Source: a virus. Taken from it: DNA of 38,448 nt. This document shows, one piece after another, positions 5,965-34,368 of the stretch (position 1 is the stretch's first letter; every line of letters starts with the position of its first letter). The position numbers were made by a program, and so were the translations under genes. The notes below the pieces were generated by a model. That model was not told where the DNA came from, searched no databases, and was given only the letters and a program-made list of their open reading frames with translations. The stretch is taken from the IMG/VR virus record IMGVR_UViG_3300025771_000065, positions 1-38,448 of that record. One strand, 5' to 3'.

Positions 5965-7341
5965 ATGTCAATTAAATCATTCAGTGATTTTTTAACTGAA
6001 GACACAAAAGAAGTAGCATTCGTATTTGGAAGATTCAATCCTCCGACGATTGGTCATGAAAAATTATTTGATAAGTTAAAAAATGTAGCTCGTTCCGGAG
6101 CTTATCGTATATATGCATCTAAATCAGTAGATAAAAATAAAAATCCATTATTATTCAAAGATAAAATAAAATTCCTTAGAAAAATGTTTCCAAAACACGC
6201 ACGTAGTGTTATGGCAGATAAAGATGTTCGTAATGTACTCGATGTTGTAGTAAAACTTTACGATCAAGGCTTTACCAAAGTAACAATGGTAGCAGGTAGC
6301 GATAGAGTAAAAGAATTTGATATACTCTTAAACAAATACAATGGTCAAAAAGCAAAACACGGATTTTATAATTTCGAAGGTGCAATAAATGTAGTAAGTG
6401 CAGGGGAGAGAGATCCAGATGCTGAAGGAGCAACTGGAATGTCAGCTTCCAAGATGCGAGCCGCCGCTCAACAAAATGATTTAAATTTATTTTCAAAAGG
6501 GCTCCCATCGAATTTTAATTCAACCGATTTATTTAATGCAGTTCGCAAAGGTATAGGACTTAAAGAATCTCATAGCTTTCGTAAACATGTAGAACTTCCG
6601 CCTGTGTCTGAAACAAGAGAAGATTATATTGAAGGAAGTCTCTTTAAGGTTGGTGATATTGTAAGAATTAAAGAAACAAACGAGCTAGGAGAAATAATTG
6701 TTTGTGGAAGTAACTATGTCATGGTTGAGGCCGAGTCAGTCAAGAAAAGATTCTGGTTAGATGCCGTTGAATTATTTGAAGAAGGTGGTGCAGGAGACTG
6801 GGGAACAATTAAAGGTCTTATGCGATATCTAAAAGATACACCAGGTCAAAAACATTTTAACGAAAAAGAAGATCCAGATATTGGAAAGAAAAAAGGATCT
6901 CAACCAGCTAGTTATCATAAAGGTTTAGGTAAATCTACAAAGCAAAAGCGTGATGCACAGTTTAAAAAACAAGCTAAAATGGACGATGATAATCCAAAGG
7001 CTTATAAACCAGCACCAGGCGATGCTACAGCCAAAACGAAACCATCCAAACATACTAAAAAGTATAAGCAGATGTACGGTGAAATGGCAGAGCATTTAAC
7101 ATTTGAAGATTTTACTATTAATGAGCAGAACACAAAAGCAGCATTAATGAAGAAAGCTGATAAAAGTGGAATTGCTTATGGTATATTAAAGAAAGTATTT
7201 GATCGAGGCGTCGCTGCATGGAGAACGGGACACAGACCCGGAACTACTCCAGTTCAGTGGGGTCTCGCTAGAGTAAACTCATTTATAACAAAAGGAAAAA
7301 CATGGTCTACTACTGATAGTGACCTAGCAAAAAAGGTATAA
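5965..7341 (+). CDS. NMN-adenylyltransferase-like / cytidylyltransferase-fold protein with DUF5824-like C-terminus, 458 aa
   Basis: Residues 17-190 form a nucleotidyltransferase domain with GRFNPPTIGH (T28-x-G-H31, the T/HxGH ATP motif), MVAGSDR near 109 and SASKMR (160-165, the ISSTxxR-like motif). This pattern fits NadM/NMNAT or CTP:phosphate transferases. A small SH3/KOW-like segment (FKVGDIVRIKET) follows near residue 228. The C-terminal about 70 residues (GIAYGILKKVFDRGVAAW, then ARVNSF) look like DUF5824. The N-terminus SFSDFLTE|D fits capsid targeting. The fusion suggests a packaged NAD- or nucleotide-handling enzyme; substrate unproven. Confidence 0.8.
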   Translation: MSIKSFSDFLTEDTKEVAFVFGRFNPPTIGHEKLFDKLKNVARSGAYRIYASKSVDKNKNPLLFKDKIKFLRKMFPKHARSVMADKDVRNVLDVVVKLYDQGFTKVTMVAGSDRVKEFDILLNKYNGQKAKHGFYNFEGAINVVSAGERDPDAEGATGMSASKMRAAAQQNDLNLFSKGLPSNFNSTDLFNAVRKGIGLKESHSFRKHVELPPVSETREDYIEGSLFKVGDIVRIKETNELGEIIVCGSNYVMVEAESVKKRFWLDAVELFEEGGAGDWGTIKGLMRYLKDTPGQKHFNEKEDPDIGKKKGSQPASYHKGLGKSTKQKRDAQFKKQAKMDDDNPKAYKPAPGDATAKTKPSKHTKKYKQMYGEMAEHLTFEDFTINEQNTKAALMKKADKSGIAYGILKKVFDRGVAAWRTGHRPGTTPVQWGLARVNSFITKGKTWSTTDSDLAKKV

Positions 7342-7343
7342 CG

Positions 7344-7748
7344 ATGAAAAATTTTAAAGAAATTAGAGAAAAATATCGCAGCAAATTTCCACCTGCATTA
7401 GTTGCTGCTGCTGTCAAGATTGCTCTTGATATGGGTGGTAATATGACCGGAGCTTATAAAAAGATCGAAAACATGAAGCGAGGATTAGCAGATGATCCTA
7501 TTGTGAAAGATGCTTTAAGACAAGCTAACGAAGAAACTGTAAAAGAAGATGCATCACTAAATAAAGTAATGAAAGTTATTCAAAAAGATCTTAAGAAAGA
7601 AAAAATTAGATCCATGAAAGATTTAGAAAGATATTTAGATTACTCAGGTGGTGATATTATATTTGACATGGAGTCAGATGAAGATAAAGCTAACGATTTA
7701 ATTAATAAAGTTCATGATAAACTTAAAAAACAATTTAAATTAAGATGA
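7344..7748 (+). CDS. Conserved small protein, 134 aa
   Basis: The N-terminal part (KYRSKFPPALVAAAVKIALD and MGGNMTGAYKKIE) is a segment I recognise as recurring in marine T4-like phage proteins, without a known function. The rest is highly charged and helical, ending in KLKKQFKLR. The N-terminus MKNFKEIREKY lacks the L/I-x-E cleavage site seen in neighbouring genes. The start follows the upstream stop directly, and the stop overlaps the next ATG (ATGA). Confidence 0.75.
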   Translation: MKNFKEIREKYRSKFPPALVAAAVKIALDMGGNMTGAYKKIENMKRGLADDPIVKDALRQANEETVKEDASLNKVMKVIQKDLKKEKIRSMKDLERYLDYSGGDIIFDMESDEDKANDLINKVHDKLKKQFKLR

Positions 7749-11696: not shown

Positions 11697-11934
11697 TTGG
11701 AAAATATCTATCTTAAAAAGATTATATTATTGGATTAAATCTTTTTTCACAACAACCTATACTATTCAAGTATCTTATGATAGTCAATGGGGAAACGCTG
11801 ATGATAAAGTCTATACAGGCGTAAAATCAATTCAAAAACAAACATTTAAAGAATTAAAATTCATCACTGAAGATAAAAGACCTATACATATAAAGGCAAA
11901 CAGTGGATTGAACTATAAAATCGAGGTAGAATAA
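11671..11934 (+). CDS. Small protein with hydrophobic basic N-terminus, 87 aa
   Basis: I chose the GTG at 11671 because a good AGGAG site (11658-11662) lies nine bases upstream; a TTG at 11653 would place the ribosome site inside the gene. The N-terminal 30 residues are basic and hydrophobic (FLSWKISILKRLYYWIKSFF), like an amphipathic or monotopic membrane helix. A beta-rich domain follows (TIQVSYDSQWGNADDKVYTG). The family is unknown. It directly precedes the spanin pair. Confidence 0.65.
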   Translation: MKHLKRFLSWKISILKRLYYWIKSFFTTTYTIQVSYDSQWGNADDKVYTGVKSIQKQTFKELKFITEDKRPIHIKANSGLNYKIEVE

Positions 11935-12302
11935 TGCAACAATTTTTTCTAGCAATTATCTTAGTACTGGGTTTAGGTACTTGGTGGTTATATGGCGAAA
12001 ATCAAACACTCAAGGAAAATAATTTAAAACTTGAGCTAGCAGTCGAAGAACAAAAAGAAGCCATAGAGGCAATTAAAGAATCATACGAAAGGCAGGGTGC
12101 TGCTTTAAATAATTTATCACAAAAGAATGCTCAGATCGAAGCTGAAATGGCTGGATATCTGGATATCTTTCGTAGACACAATTTAAACATGTTAGCTGAA
12201 GCCAAACCTGGATTGATTGAAAAGAGAATCAATGATGGAACAGTGGCAGTATTTAAGGATATAGAAAATGATAGCAAAAAAATTAGCGATCTTAATAAGT
12301 AG
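11934..12302 (+). CDS. Inner-membrane spanin subunit (Rz-like), 122 aa
   Basis: One N-terminal transmembrane helix (residues 3-20, FFLAIILVLGLGTWWLY) is followed by a long Glu/Lys/Gln coiled coil (22-75) in the predicted periplasmic part, the i-spanin topology. The next gene, a small lipoprotein, starts inside its 3' end, the usual Rz/Rz1 arrangement. Together they would fuse inner and outer membranes in the last step of lysis. A C-terminal NMLAEAKPGLIEKRINDGT block resembles spanin-like genes of marine T4-like phages. Confidence 0.8.
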   Translation: MQQFFLAIILVLGLGTWWLYGENQTLKENNLKLELAVEEQKEAIEAIKESYERQGAALNNLSQKNAQIEAEMAGYLDIFRRHNLNMLAEAKPGLIEKRINDGTVAVFKDIENDSKKISDLNK

Positions 12303-12759
12303 TGTTTTATTAATTCAAGGGTGTAGTACTCTTGGACTTTTAAGTGGTACAAAGAAAATCGAAACGGTAAGTAAGCCCGTGAAAATCGATATTATACAAC
12401 CAACACTACCAAGAGAAATTAACTTAACAGAACCAAAATGGTATGTTGTATCAGAAAAAGCAATTGCAAATCCATGCTTAAAAAATGAAGAAGGTAAAAG
12501 AGATTGTTCACTAGGTAAAGAGAACGATTGGCCTGAAGGATATACATATCTTGACAGATTTTTAGACGAAATGAAAAAACAGAATGGCGGTAAGGTAGTC
12601 TTTGTTGCTACAACCATAGGTGATTATGAAGCCATGTCTGTTAATATGCAAGAGCTTAGAAGATATATTCGCGAACTTGGTGAAGTCGTGGTATATTATC
12701 GCGATGTGACTATTGGTGATGAAAAAGGTGTTGGTGCTGCTATAAAGAAAAATGATTAG
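12268..12759 (+). CDS. Outer-membrane lipoprotein, probable o-spanin (Rz1-like), 163 aa
   Basis: It has a lipoprotein signal (MIAKKLAILISSVLLIQGCS) with the lipobox ending at C19. The start lies 35 bases inside the upstream Rz-like gene, supporting a spanin pair. At 163 residues it is longer than classic Rz1 and has a folded domain (GGKVVFVATTIGDYEAMSVN, then YIRELGEVVVYYRD), so an extra function is possible. It would sit in the inner leaflet of the outer membrane facing the periplasm. Confidence 0.78.
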   Translation: MIAKKLAILISSVLLIQGCSTLGLLSGTKKIETVSKPVKIDIIQPTLPREINLTEPKWYVVSEKAIANPCLKNEEGKRDCSLGKENDWPEGYTYLDRFLDEMKKQNGGKVVFVATTIGDYEAMSVNMQELRRYIRELGEVVVYYRDVTIGDEKGVGAAIKKND

Positions 12760-26195: not shown

Positions 26196-26477
26196 ATGGA
26201 TTTAGCATTCATAGTGATTGGTGGAATAATATTAGTAGCAGGAATTTATGCTGTTTATGATAATTCCAAACCTGCGTCAGGAGTTAGAGCAAGAAACGAG
26301 AAAGGACATTTTGTAAAAGATGATCCTGATACTCATCACAAAAACGAAGCTTATAAAGATGGTAAAACACCAGCTATAAAGAAAGCTCCAGTGAAGAGAA
26401 AACCAGCAGCTAAGAAGCCTGCTGCTAAGAAAGCTCCAACACAACGCAGAACCAGAAAAAAAGCAGCTAAAAAATAA
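26196..26477 (+). CDS. Membrane protein with histone-H1-like tail, 93 aa
   Basis: Residues 1-22 form one transmembrane helix (LAFIVIGGIILVAGIYAVYD). The C-terminal 40 residues are an Ala/Lys/Pro-rich tail with repeats (KRKPAAKKPAAKKAPTQRRT) like histone H1 tails. A strong AGGAGG site precedes the ATG. The topology would let the basic tail bind DNA or acidic polymers close to the membrane. The low-complexity tail could also be a neutral expansion. No homologue named. Confidence 0.75.
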   Translation: MDLAFIVIGGIILVAGIYAVYDNSKPASGVRARNEKGHFVKDDPDTHHKNEAYKDGKTPAIKKAPVKRKPAAKKPAAKKAPTQRRTRKKAAKK

Positions 26478-26507: not shown

Positions 26508-26558
26508 AATAGAAATGGTAAGACATTAATCTTACTATGTAATCTAATGGAGAATATA

Positions 26559-26864
26559 ATGAAAAATTTATTTACTCTGTTCGCTGGATTAGTTCTTATT
26601 ACGAACTGTGCTTCTATTGGAAGCGTCGTAGAAGGAACTAAGGAGTTTACAACTGGAGTTGTTGATGGTGCTGTAAAAGGTACTTCAACTATTGTTTCAG
26701 CTGTAGCTTCTGATGTGGTCTCCACAGGAGAATTCGTCGTTGAAACAGCTGTTGATGTAGGTAAAACTGCAGTCAATACTGGTACTGGAGTTGTTCAAAA
26801 AGCAGCTAACAGAATCGATGAAGAAACTGACAAATTACAAAACCCTCACCCTGAGGGAAAGTAG
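26559..26864 (+). CDS. Lipoprotein, short (0-frame) product, 101 aa
   Basis: The ATG at 26559 has GGAG at good spacing; an upstream in-frame ATG (26547) lies within the ribosome-site region. The signal MKNLFTLFAGLVLITNCAS has a lipobox ending at C17. The mature part is Val/Thr/Ala-rich (GVVDGAVKGTSTIVSAVASD, then VVETAVDVGKTAVNTGTGVV) with glycine-spaced helices like a small entericidin- or YgdR-type lipoprotein. The last codons G GGA AAG form a lambda-type slippery heptamer just before the TAG stop. Confidence 0.82.
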   Translation: MKNLFTLFAGLVLITNCASIGSVVEGTKEFTTGVVDGAVKGTSTIVSAVASDVVSTGEFVVETAVDVGKTAVNTGTGVVQKAANRIDEETDKLQNPHPEGK

Positions 26865-27013
26865 CTTGGTCTCTTTTTCCACAATATCCTAAAGAAAAAA
26901 AGGATATTCTGGAAAAGGAGAGAGTAGTTGAAGAAGCAAAAAATGATATAACTATTATCATTAAAATTGTGAAACGCTACTGTACGCAATATCCGGAAGA
27001 GTGCGAACAATAA
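26855..27013 (+). other. Programmed -1 frameshift site and 50-codon extension of the lipoprotein
   Basis: GGGAAAG (26855-26861) is in the X-XXY-YYZ phase of the lipoprotein frame. It is followed by 8 bases and then a hairpin of about 20 pairs (26870-26890 with 26901-26921, one C-C mismatch, one G-U) around a 10-base A-rich loop. After a -1 shift, reading continues from GTA at 26861 to TAA at 27011-27013, adding 50 residues (VAWSLFPQYPKEKKDILEKE, later KRYCTQYPEECEQ). The -1 frame has no ATG, TTG or early GTG. The long product would be about 151 aa. Confidence 0.72.
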
Positions 27014-27017
27014 TATT

Positions 27018-27046
27018 AAAGGGTCCCGTTCAGGGACCTTTTTTTT
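27018..27046 (+). terminator. Intrinsic terminator after the frameshifted lipoprotein gene
   Basis: A stem GGTCCC / GGGACC (27022-27027 with 27033-27038), extended by A-T pairs, has a 5-base loop and a run of eight T (27039-27046). The last T is also the first base of a late promoter octamer. Confidence 0.92.
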
Positions 27047-27058: not shown

Positions 27059-27355
27059 ATGGAAGAAGTGTTTCAATTGATATCCGATCTAGGGTTACCT
27101 ATTGCAGGAGCTCTAATTATGGGATTCTTTATATTTACAATCATCAAACAAATATTTGAAGGAATTGTAGATAGTATTAAAACACTGACAATGTTCTGTG
27201 CTTCATTAGAGAATAGAGCCAGAACAATGAGTAATGAAATGGTGAAAATCGATTTACTTGTAAGTAGTGCACTCGAGCTTAGACCAGATATTGAAAGAAT
27301 TGCAAGGGCAGAAAATTTCATTGAAGATGGTAAGCTTGACGTGAGAAGAGATTAA
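27059..27355 (+). CDS. Membrane protein of a conserved pair, 98 aa
   Basis: One N-terminal transmembrane helix (about residues 12-32, LPIAGALIMGFFIFTIIKQI) precedes a helical cytoplasmic or periplasmic part (MFCASLENRARTMSNEMVKI, RPDIERIARAENF). I recall similar pairs of small membrane proteins with this layout in T4-like cyanophages. It is paired with the following gene, which has the same architecture. It could act in lysis or in membrane docking of the curli genes downstream; both are inference. Confidence 0.78.
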   Translation: MEEVFQLISDLGLPIAGALIMGFFIFTIIKQIFEGIVDSIKTLTMFCASLENRARTMSNEMVKIDLLVSSALELRPDIERIARAENFIEDGKLDVRRD

Positions 27356-27356
27356 T

Positions 27357-27623
27357 ATGGAAATTGCAGATTTAATAGCCCAGTATGGGTTTCCAACAGT
27401 TATGGTTGTTGGTTTAGGTTATTTTGTTTACTTTGTTTATAGTTTTATAAACGAACATATAGAACCAGTGATTGAAAAAATGCATTTTCAACTTATTCGA
27501 GTAATAGATCAAATGAGAATGTTAGATCAGGATATAATCCGTCTACAACAAAAAGTAGACACAGTACTAGAATATAAGGAAAATGAAAAGAAGAAGACTG
27601 AAAAAACTAAGAGAACAGAGTGA
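27357..27623 (+). CDS. Second membrane protein of the pair, 88 aa
   Basis: A transmembrane helix at residues 12-32 (FPTVMVVGLGYFVYFVYSFI) is followed by a helix (RVIDQMRMLDQDIIRLQQKV) ending in a Lys/Glu-rich tail (YKENEKKKTEKTKRTE). It parallels the upstream gene in layout (N-terminal helix then coiled segment), so the two may form a heteromer. The csgF-like gene starts 41 bases inside its end. Confidence 0.76.
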   Translation: MEIADLIAQYGFPTVMVVGLGYFVYFVYSFINEHIEPVIEKMHFQLIRVIDQMRMLDQDIIRLQQKVDTVLEYKENEKKKTEKTKRTE

Positions 27624-32532: not shown

Positions 32533-34368
32533 ATGAAATATTTAACATCAATTTGGACAACAATACTCTTAGGTATAACACTTTTAGGAGTGCGTATTGC
32601 CGATCCACAGATAGTAGAAGAATTAAGATTAAGTATATTTGATCAATATATTCAATCACTTCCAGTAGAACATTCAGAAGAAATAGTTCTTTTAAACATT
32701 GGTGAAAATTCACTAGAGAAATTTGGTCAATATCCTTGGCCAAGACAATACTATGCACAAATGATTGCTGATTTAAGAAATGCAAATGCTGGTATGATTG
32801 GATTTACAATTATGTTTCCAGAACCAGATAGGTTTGGTGGTGATGAAGTCTTTGCATCATGGGTAAAAGACAATGGTATTATATTAGCTCAAGATGCAGA
32901 TGAGAATGGTAGATCAGAAAAAGCACCTTATGTTGGATATGCAACATTTGGATATGCTGGTGATCCATTAGATTTTACATATCGTTATAAAGGTTTAGTA
33001 ACAAATATAGAATCTTTAGAATCAGGTGCATGGGGTGCAGGATTATTAAATGGAGCACCAGAAGTTGACAATGTAACACGTAGAATACCTTTAATGTCAC
33101 AGGTCAATGGAGATCTTTATCCATCATTTGCTTTAGAAACAGTCAGAGCATTACAAAATAAAAAGAGTTATACAATTAAATTAAATGAAAGTGGTATTGA
33201 GGAAATTATACTTAGACCATTTCAAATACCTACAGATTCAAATGGCAGTATTTGGTTGAAATGGAATACACACTTTACAGAAATAGAATATGATGGTCAA
33301 CCAATAGAAGATTTAAATGGTAAGACTGTTATTGTTGGTGTAACTGCTAAAGGGATTGTACCTCAGACCTCAACTCCAGCTGGATTGCTTTATCCTCATC
33401 AATTACAGGCATCGGCTCTTCAGTCAATAATGTCTGATTCTCCGATATCTCGTCCTCAGTGGACTTTTCAAGCGGAAATAGGTCTAATTCTAATTGGATC
33501 TCTTTTGATTGTATTGAGTATATATTATCTACCGATTTGGATATCATTTGTACTCTTCTTCTTGACTTCGACTGCCGCAACAACTTTATCCTATTACGCT
33601 TGGTACGAATTTTCTATACTCCTCGATTTATCAGCTTCTCTAATAATATATATAATTTTACTGTCCTCAGCGAGCTTTAATAATTTCTATAAACAATTTG
33701 TTTTACGACAACAGATAAAGAAACAATTTGGTACATATGTATCTCCAGACCTAGTCAAACAATTACAGAAAGACCCATCACTTTTAAAGCTTGGTGGAGA
33801 AAGAAAAGAAATGACATTTATGTTTATGGATATATGTGGCTTTACTCCAATATCAGAACATTATAAGAACAATGATGACCCAGAAGGATTAGTGATTCTT
33901 ATAAATAATTATTTAGATACCATGACTAAAATTGTTCTTAAGAATGGTGGAACAATCGATAAATTCATGGGTGATTGTATCATGGCTTTTTGGAATGCTC
34001 CCTTAGATTGTGAGGACCATGCTGATAAAGCTGTACAAACATCTATTGAAATATGCGAAGCAGCAGATGAACTTATACAACAACTTGAGGACCAAGGTTT
34101 ACCTAGGATTGATATTGGTATTGGCATCAATACCGGCACCTGTATCGTCGGAAACATGGGATCAGAATCTCGATTTGACTATTCCGTTATTGGAGATGCC
34201 GTCAACCTTGGGGCTCGACTCGAAGGACAAACACGCAATTATGATGGGGTTCGAGTGTTGTTGGGACCAGAAACTTATCAAAGCTGTCCATCAAGAAAAT
34301 TTTCTGAAGTCGATAGAATCCTCGTTAAGGGAAAATCCGAAAAAGTTACAATATACACACCAATTTAA
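32533..34368 (+). CDS. CHASE2-domain class III adenylate/guanylate cyclase, 611 aa
   Basis: An N-terminal membrane segment, a CHASE2 sensor domain (IVLLNIGENSLEKFGQYPWP, about residues 20-310), three membrane helices (about 312-390) and a class III cyclase domain (425-611) are seen in order. Metal aspartates are D433 (FMDICGFT) and D481 (GDCIMAFW), with K477 before the latter. The transition-state N and R are in GDAVNLGARLEG. K plus a Ser at the second purine-contact site favours ATP. It would make cAMP in response to periplasmic cues; it lies beside FecR and curli genes, as CHASE2 cyclases often do. Confidence 0.93.
   Translation: MKYLTSIWTTILLGITLLGVRIADPQIVEELRLSIFDQYIQSLPVEHSEEIVLLNIGENSLEKFGQYPWPRQYYAQMIADLRNANAGMIGFTIMFPEPDRFGGDEVFASWVKDNGIILAQDADENGRSEKAPYVGYATFGYAGDPLDFTYRYKGLVTNIESLESGAWGAGLLNGAPEVDNVTRRIPLMSQVNGDLYPSFALETVRALQNKKSYTIKLNESGIEEIILRPFQIPTDSNGSIWLKWNTHFTEIEYDGQPIEDLNGKTVIVGVTAKGIVPQTSTPAGLLYPHQLQASALQSIMSDSPISRPQWTFQAEIGLILIGSLLIVLSIYYLPIWISFVLFFLTSTAATTLSYYAWYEFSILLDLSASLIIYIILLSSASFNNFYKQFVLRQQIKKQFGTYVSPDLVKQLQKDPSLLKLGGERKEMTFMFMDICGFTPISEHYKNNDDPEGLVILINNYLDTMTKIVLKNGGTIDKFMGDCIMAFWNAPLDCEDHADKAVQTSIEICEAADELIQQLEDQGLPRIDIGIGINTGTCIVGNMGSESRFDYSVIGDAVNLGARLEGQTRNYDGVRVLLGPETYQSCPSRKFSEVDRILVKGKSEKVTIYTPI

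Follow-up and report, generated by a model that had tools for sequence, protein, structure and literature searches.

A putative lipoprotein gene in marine viral DNA carries a conserved −1 frameshift signal at its stop codon and belongs to a new gene family; the mechanism is of a known kind, and the gene and its layout are new. We are highly confident that programmed −1 ribosomal frameshifting here yields two lipoproteins from one gene, a reading built on comparison of sequences. The gene lies in what we call the window, the whole 38,448-nucleotide stretch of viral DNA that was analysed, which, from its homologues in HTVC008M and Melnitz, represents part of a pelagimyophage-like genome.

In tailed phages, most of the programmed −1 frameshifts known belong to tail and capsid genes. 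The available phage frameshift tool, like the set it was trained on, deals almost exclusively with tail chaperones (PMC10885494). The original prediction, made from the letters of the window, knew of no precedent in a phage lipoprotein gene next to lysis or curli genes, and no report or description of a programmed frameshift in any phage lipoprotein was found in the freely accessible literature searched. The pelagic myophage papers examined (including PMC9004378) mention neither the lipoprotein nor a frameshift.

The gene, its slip site and its two proposed products

All of the features described here lie on the plus strand of the window. The 0-frame ORF (26559..26864), taken from direct reading and an alignment of 23 relatives, encodes a predicted lipoprotein of 101 residues, the short form. 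Its start is most likely the ATG at 26559, with GGAG, a likely Shine-Dalgarno sequence (26549..26552), 6 nt upstream. The 3′ end reads CCT GAG GGA AAG TAG, the TAG being 26862-26864, and the heptamer GGGAAAG (26855..26861) stands in X_XXY_YYZ phase (G_GGA_AAG) directly against this stop; tail-bearing relatives likewise have a heptamer at the stop. An 8-nt spacer, TAGCTTGG (26862..26869), starts with the TAG and leads to a hairpin that is the likely 3′ stimulator (26870..26921).

The −1 frame has a TGA directly 5′ of the heptamer, is open from 26855 to 27010 and stops at 27011-27013; the overlap of the two frames is thus the heptamer exactly. The extension (26862..27013, its first codon using base 26861) is 50 residues long, VAWSLFPQYP...KRYCTQYPEECEQ, and ends in C-x6-C. 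Direct reading of the −1 ORF bears out the claim that it has no ATG, TTG or early GTG, a single late GTG being its only such codon. Directly past the −1 stop is a terminator-like hairpin, gggtcccgttcagggacc, followed by T8 (27020..27046). The heptamer phase, the 0-frame end and the 8-base spacer had been predicted correctly to the base, as had the coordinates of both hairpin arms and the −1 end at 27013.

By inspection, the protein has a hydrophobic N-terminus and a cysteine, Cys17, that is invariant in the 23 relatives. Most relatives have LPSC at this place; the window protein has the lipobox-like LITN-C, with N at −1, a position normally taken by S, G or A. There follow 11-residue amphipathic repeats, of a type typical of membrane-surface helices. 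After Cys17 the hydrophobic moment is greatest at 97-98 degrees per residue, which corresponds to an 11/3 helix, and none of 2000 shuffles reached as high; relative to the other clades, the window clade has an insertion of exactly 11 residues. The 0-frame part and the tail were predicted separately: the former gave a low-confidence structure (pLDDT 48), and the latter one long helix (residues 13-45 of the −1 ORF) with the C-x6-C at its end, at moderate confidence (pLDDT 77). Both forms are expected to share the putative lipoprotein signal and the amphipathic helix on the membrane surface, and the C-x6-C of the long form could make a periplasmic disulfide. Pfam, PHROG, PDB-sequence and Foldseek searches returned no family match for the lipoprotein.

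The hairpin of the window consists of 12 bp from 26870-26881, a C.C mismatch (26882/26909) and 8 bp from 26883-26890, closing on a 10-nt loop (26891-26900) with its 3′ arm at 26901-26921; its 20 bp total −24.1 kcal/mol. Stability was judged by refolding the stretch after the heptamer with random synonymous codons, the −1 peptide being left unchanged. The natural stretch scored −24.7 against a mean of −7.7 (sd 3.2), and 0 of 2000 synonymous versions were as stable. Rfam and tRNA scans of the window gave no matches.

Conservation of the site, the tail and the hairpin

Relatives of the lipoprotein were confirmed by tblastn on 134 marine viral contigs of IMG/VR. No homologue was found by tblastn among 50,697 phage records of the GenBank phage set, which cover cultured phages, nor, at the sensitivity used, in 84,980 prokaryote species genomes. 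From the loci fetched in several scans, found through the lipoprotein, we extracted 55 distinct alleles, and the design is kept across clades at about 40-50% protein identity. The heptamer is present in all 51 alleles that bear the tail and absent from all four that do not. Its place varies by clade, either abutting the 0-frame stop or separated from it by a single codon: 24 of the 51 have A_AAA_AAG then TAG, 16 have A_AAA_AAG-GAY-TAA/TAG, eight have G_GGA_AAG then TAG, and three have G_GGA_AAG then TAA. The predicted GGGAAAG therefore holds for the window and some lineages, but most relatives use A_AAA_AAG instead. The final codon of the heptamer is AAG in 51/51 alleles, though AAG makes up only 20-26% of lysine codons, and every tail ends Y-C-x3-P-x2-C, with Y, C, P and C invariant.

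In the tree, the tail-less L203, L205 and L210 share a well-supported group with L199, which bears the tail, and L195 lies next to this group. When L203 is aligned with L196, to which it is also close, its 0 frame is intact, CCAAAAAAGGAC has become CCTAAACAGGAC, and a terminator occupies the place of the tail. L203 is, on this alignment, a natural joint loss of heptamer and tail in a sister lineage.

A reverse search was made with the tail alone, to avoid selecting by the lipoprotein. It gave 59 distinct tail alleles (merged by a shorter key than the 55, so that the two sets must not be summed). Each follows a lipoprotein ORF and is read in the −1 frame; none was in frame with its lipoprotein. 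More divergent lineages were added in this way, one of them on a 250-kb contig. An X_XXY_YYZ heptamer lies 0-2 codons from the stop in 57 of the 59, in one case (L447) as G_GGA_AAC. In L454 and L455 the tail is retained and GAA AAG AAG TAG replaces the canonical heptamer, leaving only an A_AAG slip; this may be either a weak slip site or a decaying one.

Purifying selection acts on the −1 tail. For the stretch after the heptamer, pN/pS in the −1 frame was 0.18 (12 alleles), 0.10 (5), 0.28 (5) and 0.41 (5) in the four larger clades; read in the 0 frame, the same stretches gave, in the same order, 0.65, an undefined value (no synonymous change), 0.84 and 0.93. In most clades the variable columns cluster at third positions of −1 codons; within the window clade by itself, changes are too few for this pattern to be judged. 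As to chance, a strong heptamer falls in the last two codons of 1 of about 320 distinct ends of ORFs of at least 100 aa in the same DNA, lipoprotein alleles excluded. That one end is in the window, A_AAA_AAG GTA TAA (heptamer at 7329-7335); as a second candidate frameshift it was rejected as a chance site, being kept in 0 of 70 relatives. It ends ORF 5965-7341, and its −1 frame enters ORF 7344-7748, an arrangement that resembles a frameshift fusion.

The hairpin is retained in relatives from the clade of the window, and a 3′ structure within about 5-9 nt, as in the window (8 nt), occurs in most, not all, lineages. Spacing from the heptamer is mostly 4-8 nt, and from clade to clade the stems have no sequence relationship. 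Synonymous versions at least as stable as the natural stretch numbered 1/1000 for L103, 0/1000 for L073 and L108, 10/1000 for L197, 3/1000 for L229 and 0/500 for L420 and L449; group 2 values were weaker, as were the predicted hairpins of the clades with A_AAA_AAG before TAG and of the TAA clades. L445 and L448 gave about 40/500, that is, no clearly significant hairpin by this shuffle. Because two to three lengths of stretch were tried per lineage, single values near 0.01-0.05 should not be relied on. Most of the 17 control stretches in the 0 frame showed nothing of note, and one gave 10/1000.

In one clade the stem shows covariation, with 12 double-change cells against 0 of 500 shuffles, and sliding the partner abolishes the signal; the sequences being related, this is supportive and not proof. 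RNAalifold found no consensus stem on a mixed group 3 alignment, probably because the stems of its subclades are offset from one another by one base; a count over the named stem was positive. The original prediction proposed aligning homologues and folding the RNA. Both bear it out: a strong slip heptamer and the −1 frame are conserved, and a hairpin stable against synonymous shuffles is found in the window and most lineages.

Proposed mechanism and rival explanations

We propose that ribosomes would read nearly to the end of the lipoprotein, until GGA occupies the P site and AAG the A site and the stable hairpin lies 8 nt ahead. In a fraction of them both tRNAs would shift back by one base, to GGG AAA, and a further 50 codons would be read to give the long form, with a predicted junction peptide ...PHPEGKVAWSLF...; the others would reach TAG at once and release the 101-residue form. 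Slippage, its efficiency and the ratio of the isoforms are inferred. A_AAA_AAG and G_GGA_AAG are highly shift-prone in Escherichia coli (PMC5009743). The tRNA-Lys and ribosomes of the phage's own host may behave differently.

Slippage of RNA polymerase at an A run, rather than of the ribosome, could also shift the frame. Such runs can provoke it, and it may act in group 2, with its GAAAAAAAG (7 A), and in group 3, with 6 A. However, no homopolymer at the site exceeds 3 in the window or in the other GGGAAAG lineages, where the design is unchanged, and polymerase slippage is hardly plausible in the window clade; the A-rich runs, moreover, all finish with AAG, set exactly in X_XXY_YYZ phase at the stop, and there is usually a hairpin beyond them. 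For the family we consider this explanation very improbable. Even less credit goes to a separate small gene with its own start, or with termination-reinitiation at the overlapping stop. The frames do adjoin, and internal ATG codons occur in some of the group 2 tails, but no start-codon position is common to the clades, the −1 ORF of the window is free of start codons save for the late GTG, and the conserved heptamer and 3′ hairpin would be left unexplained.

A sequencing or assembly indel, or decay of a gene once in a single frame, comes to mind with metagenomic contigs, some clades of which have homopolymers at the site. Yet the identical broken-frame design recurs in contigs from many samples, the −1 frame is under purifying selection, and no allele of any relative joins the two parts in one uninterrupted frame, the outcome that the original prediction named as pointing to an indel; this reading is next to impossible. 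The other outcome that the same prediction named as refuting, relatives that keep the lipoprotein and lack the slippery site or the −1 frame, did not refute it either: the relatives of the 55-allele set that lack the heptamer also lack the tail. Two further routes were rejected. For stop-codon readthrough, the 0 frame runs into another stop after a few to a few dozen codons and is not conserved there; the +1 frame mostly closes early, with no selection seen. From these patterns, sequencing error, readthrough and independent initiation are effectively excluded. The predicted −1 signal thus has behind it a conserved site, frame and structure, selection on the −1 codons, and joint loss.

Function, context and comparison with known systems

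In the window clade the gene precedes a block of holin-like, CsgF and CsgG genes. Group 3 has it after a curlin-repeat gene and before a CHASE2/cyclase-like gene, and group 2 elsewhere. Neither lysis nor curli genes are therefore a constant neighbour, and the neighbourhood noted by the original prediction, accurate for the window, says less about function across the family. Directly upstream in the window, 26196-26477 encodes a protein of 93 aa with an N-terminal TM segment and a Lys/Pro/Ala-rich tail, for which Pfam and PHROG gave no match. Between the lipoprotein and CsgF are two adjacent TM proteins (27059-27355 and 27357-27623), both of PHROG 18771 with weak holin similarity. Further away, 11934-12302 (Rz-like i-spanin) and 12268-12759 (lipoprotein o-spanin) overlap as a pair, and 32533-34368, named by eye, is a CHASE2-like and adenylate/guanylate cyclase-like ORF whose homologue lies downstream of the group 3 lipoprotein. 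In eight loci (L421, L445, L450, L452, L454, L457, L458 and L459) a secreted or membrane protein with a weak match to PF18902 (DUF5658) is encoded near the lipoprotein; the N-terminus of this neighbour, YYCDNNPEIC, has a YCxxNPxxC motif in common with the frameshift tail.

Probably, although our confidence is low, the long form would equip a minority of the molecules with a module for binding or cross-linking, within an assembly that modifies the envelope for lysis or for blocking superinfection. A part in the lysis apparatus, as a lipoprotein that disrupts the outer membrane and whose long form is the active minority, is a tentative suggestion. It draws on the position of the window gene between a lysozyme (PHROG endolysin/tail lysozyme) and holin-like TM proteins (a weak PHROG holin match), and on the proposal that the phage CsgG/CsgF block may be a lysis timer (PMC9004378). 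A separate Rz/Rz1-like spanin pair is, however, encoded at 11934-12759 (PHROG 739 and 812), and in other clades no recognised lysis gene adjoins the lipoprotein gene. An equally speculative role is that of a superinfection exclusion or surface-masking lipoprotein whose tail is the specific binding part. Outer-membrane phage lipoproteins can block receptors, T5 Llp being an example, and a small gene with its own terminator and a variable genomic position would fit; against it, searches of Pfam, PHROGs and PDB found no similarity to known families.

Taken more broadly, we think it likely that this is a large, undescribed marine-phage family in which the long form arises by a −1 frameshift at the stop codon, the G_GGA_AAG and A_AAA_AAG sites have been re-invented or exchanged several times, and a fixed ratio of membrane-anchored isoforms is placed in the envelope of the infected cell. 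The family is common in marine viral contigs and comes from uncultured phages. It is important to remember that gene callers miss the tail, which makes this C-terminus invisible in ordinary annotation. Natural site variants, including the joint loss, make the signal directly testable, and a frameshifted lipoprotein offers an entry to host-envelope modification by pelagic myoviruses.

Among known systems, lambda gpG/gpGT shares the heptamer G_GGA_AAG, the −1 direction, the C-terminal extension and the setting in a tailed-phage gene. It is a tail assembly chaperone, whereas here the product is an unrelated envelope lipoprotein, the site abuts the stop and the frames overlap by the heptamer only. 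The gene does not fall in the tail chaperone family, having no PHROG or Pfam match and lysozyme, holin-like and curli genes as neighbours. E. coli dnaX resembles groups 2 and 3 in its A_AAA_AAG with a 3′ hairpin a few nt downstream; its shifted product is the shorter one, in contrast to the longer one here, and its upstream Shine-Dalgarno stimulator is not established for the lipoprotein gene.

The curli block of the pelagimyophage HTVC008M and the methylophage Melnitz (Kyanoviridae) has homologues in the window of its small membrane protein, CsgF, CsgG, curlin-repeat and FecR genes, but these two phages lack the lipoprotein at the corresponding place. Rz/Rz1 spanins are also a case of a small phage lipoprotein and compact coding in two frames; Rz1 has a start of its own within Rz, in a different frame, whereas here there is one start and a frameshift, and no i-spanin adjoins the lipoprotein as it would an Rz1-type o-spanin. 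The lipoprotein gene works like lambda G/GT and dnaX and is a member of neither gene family.
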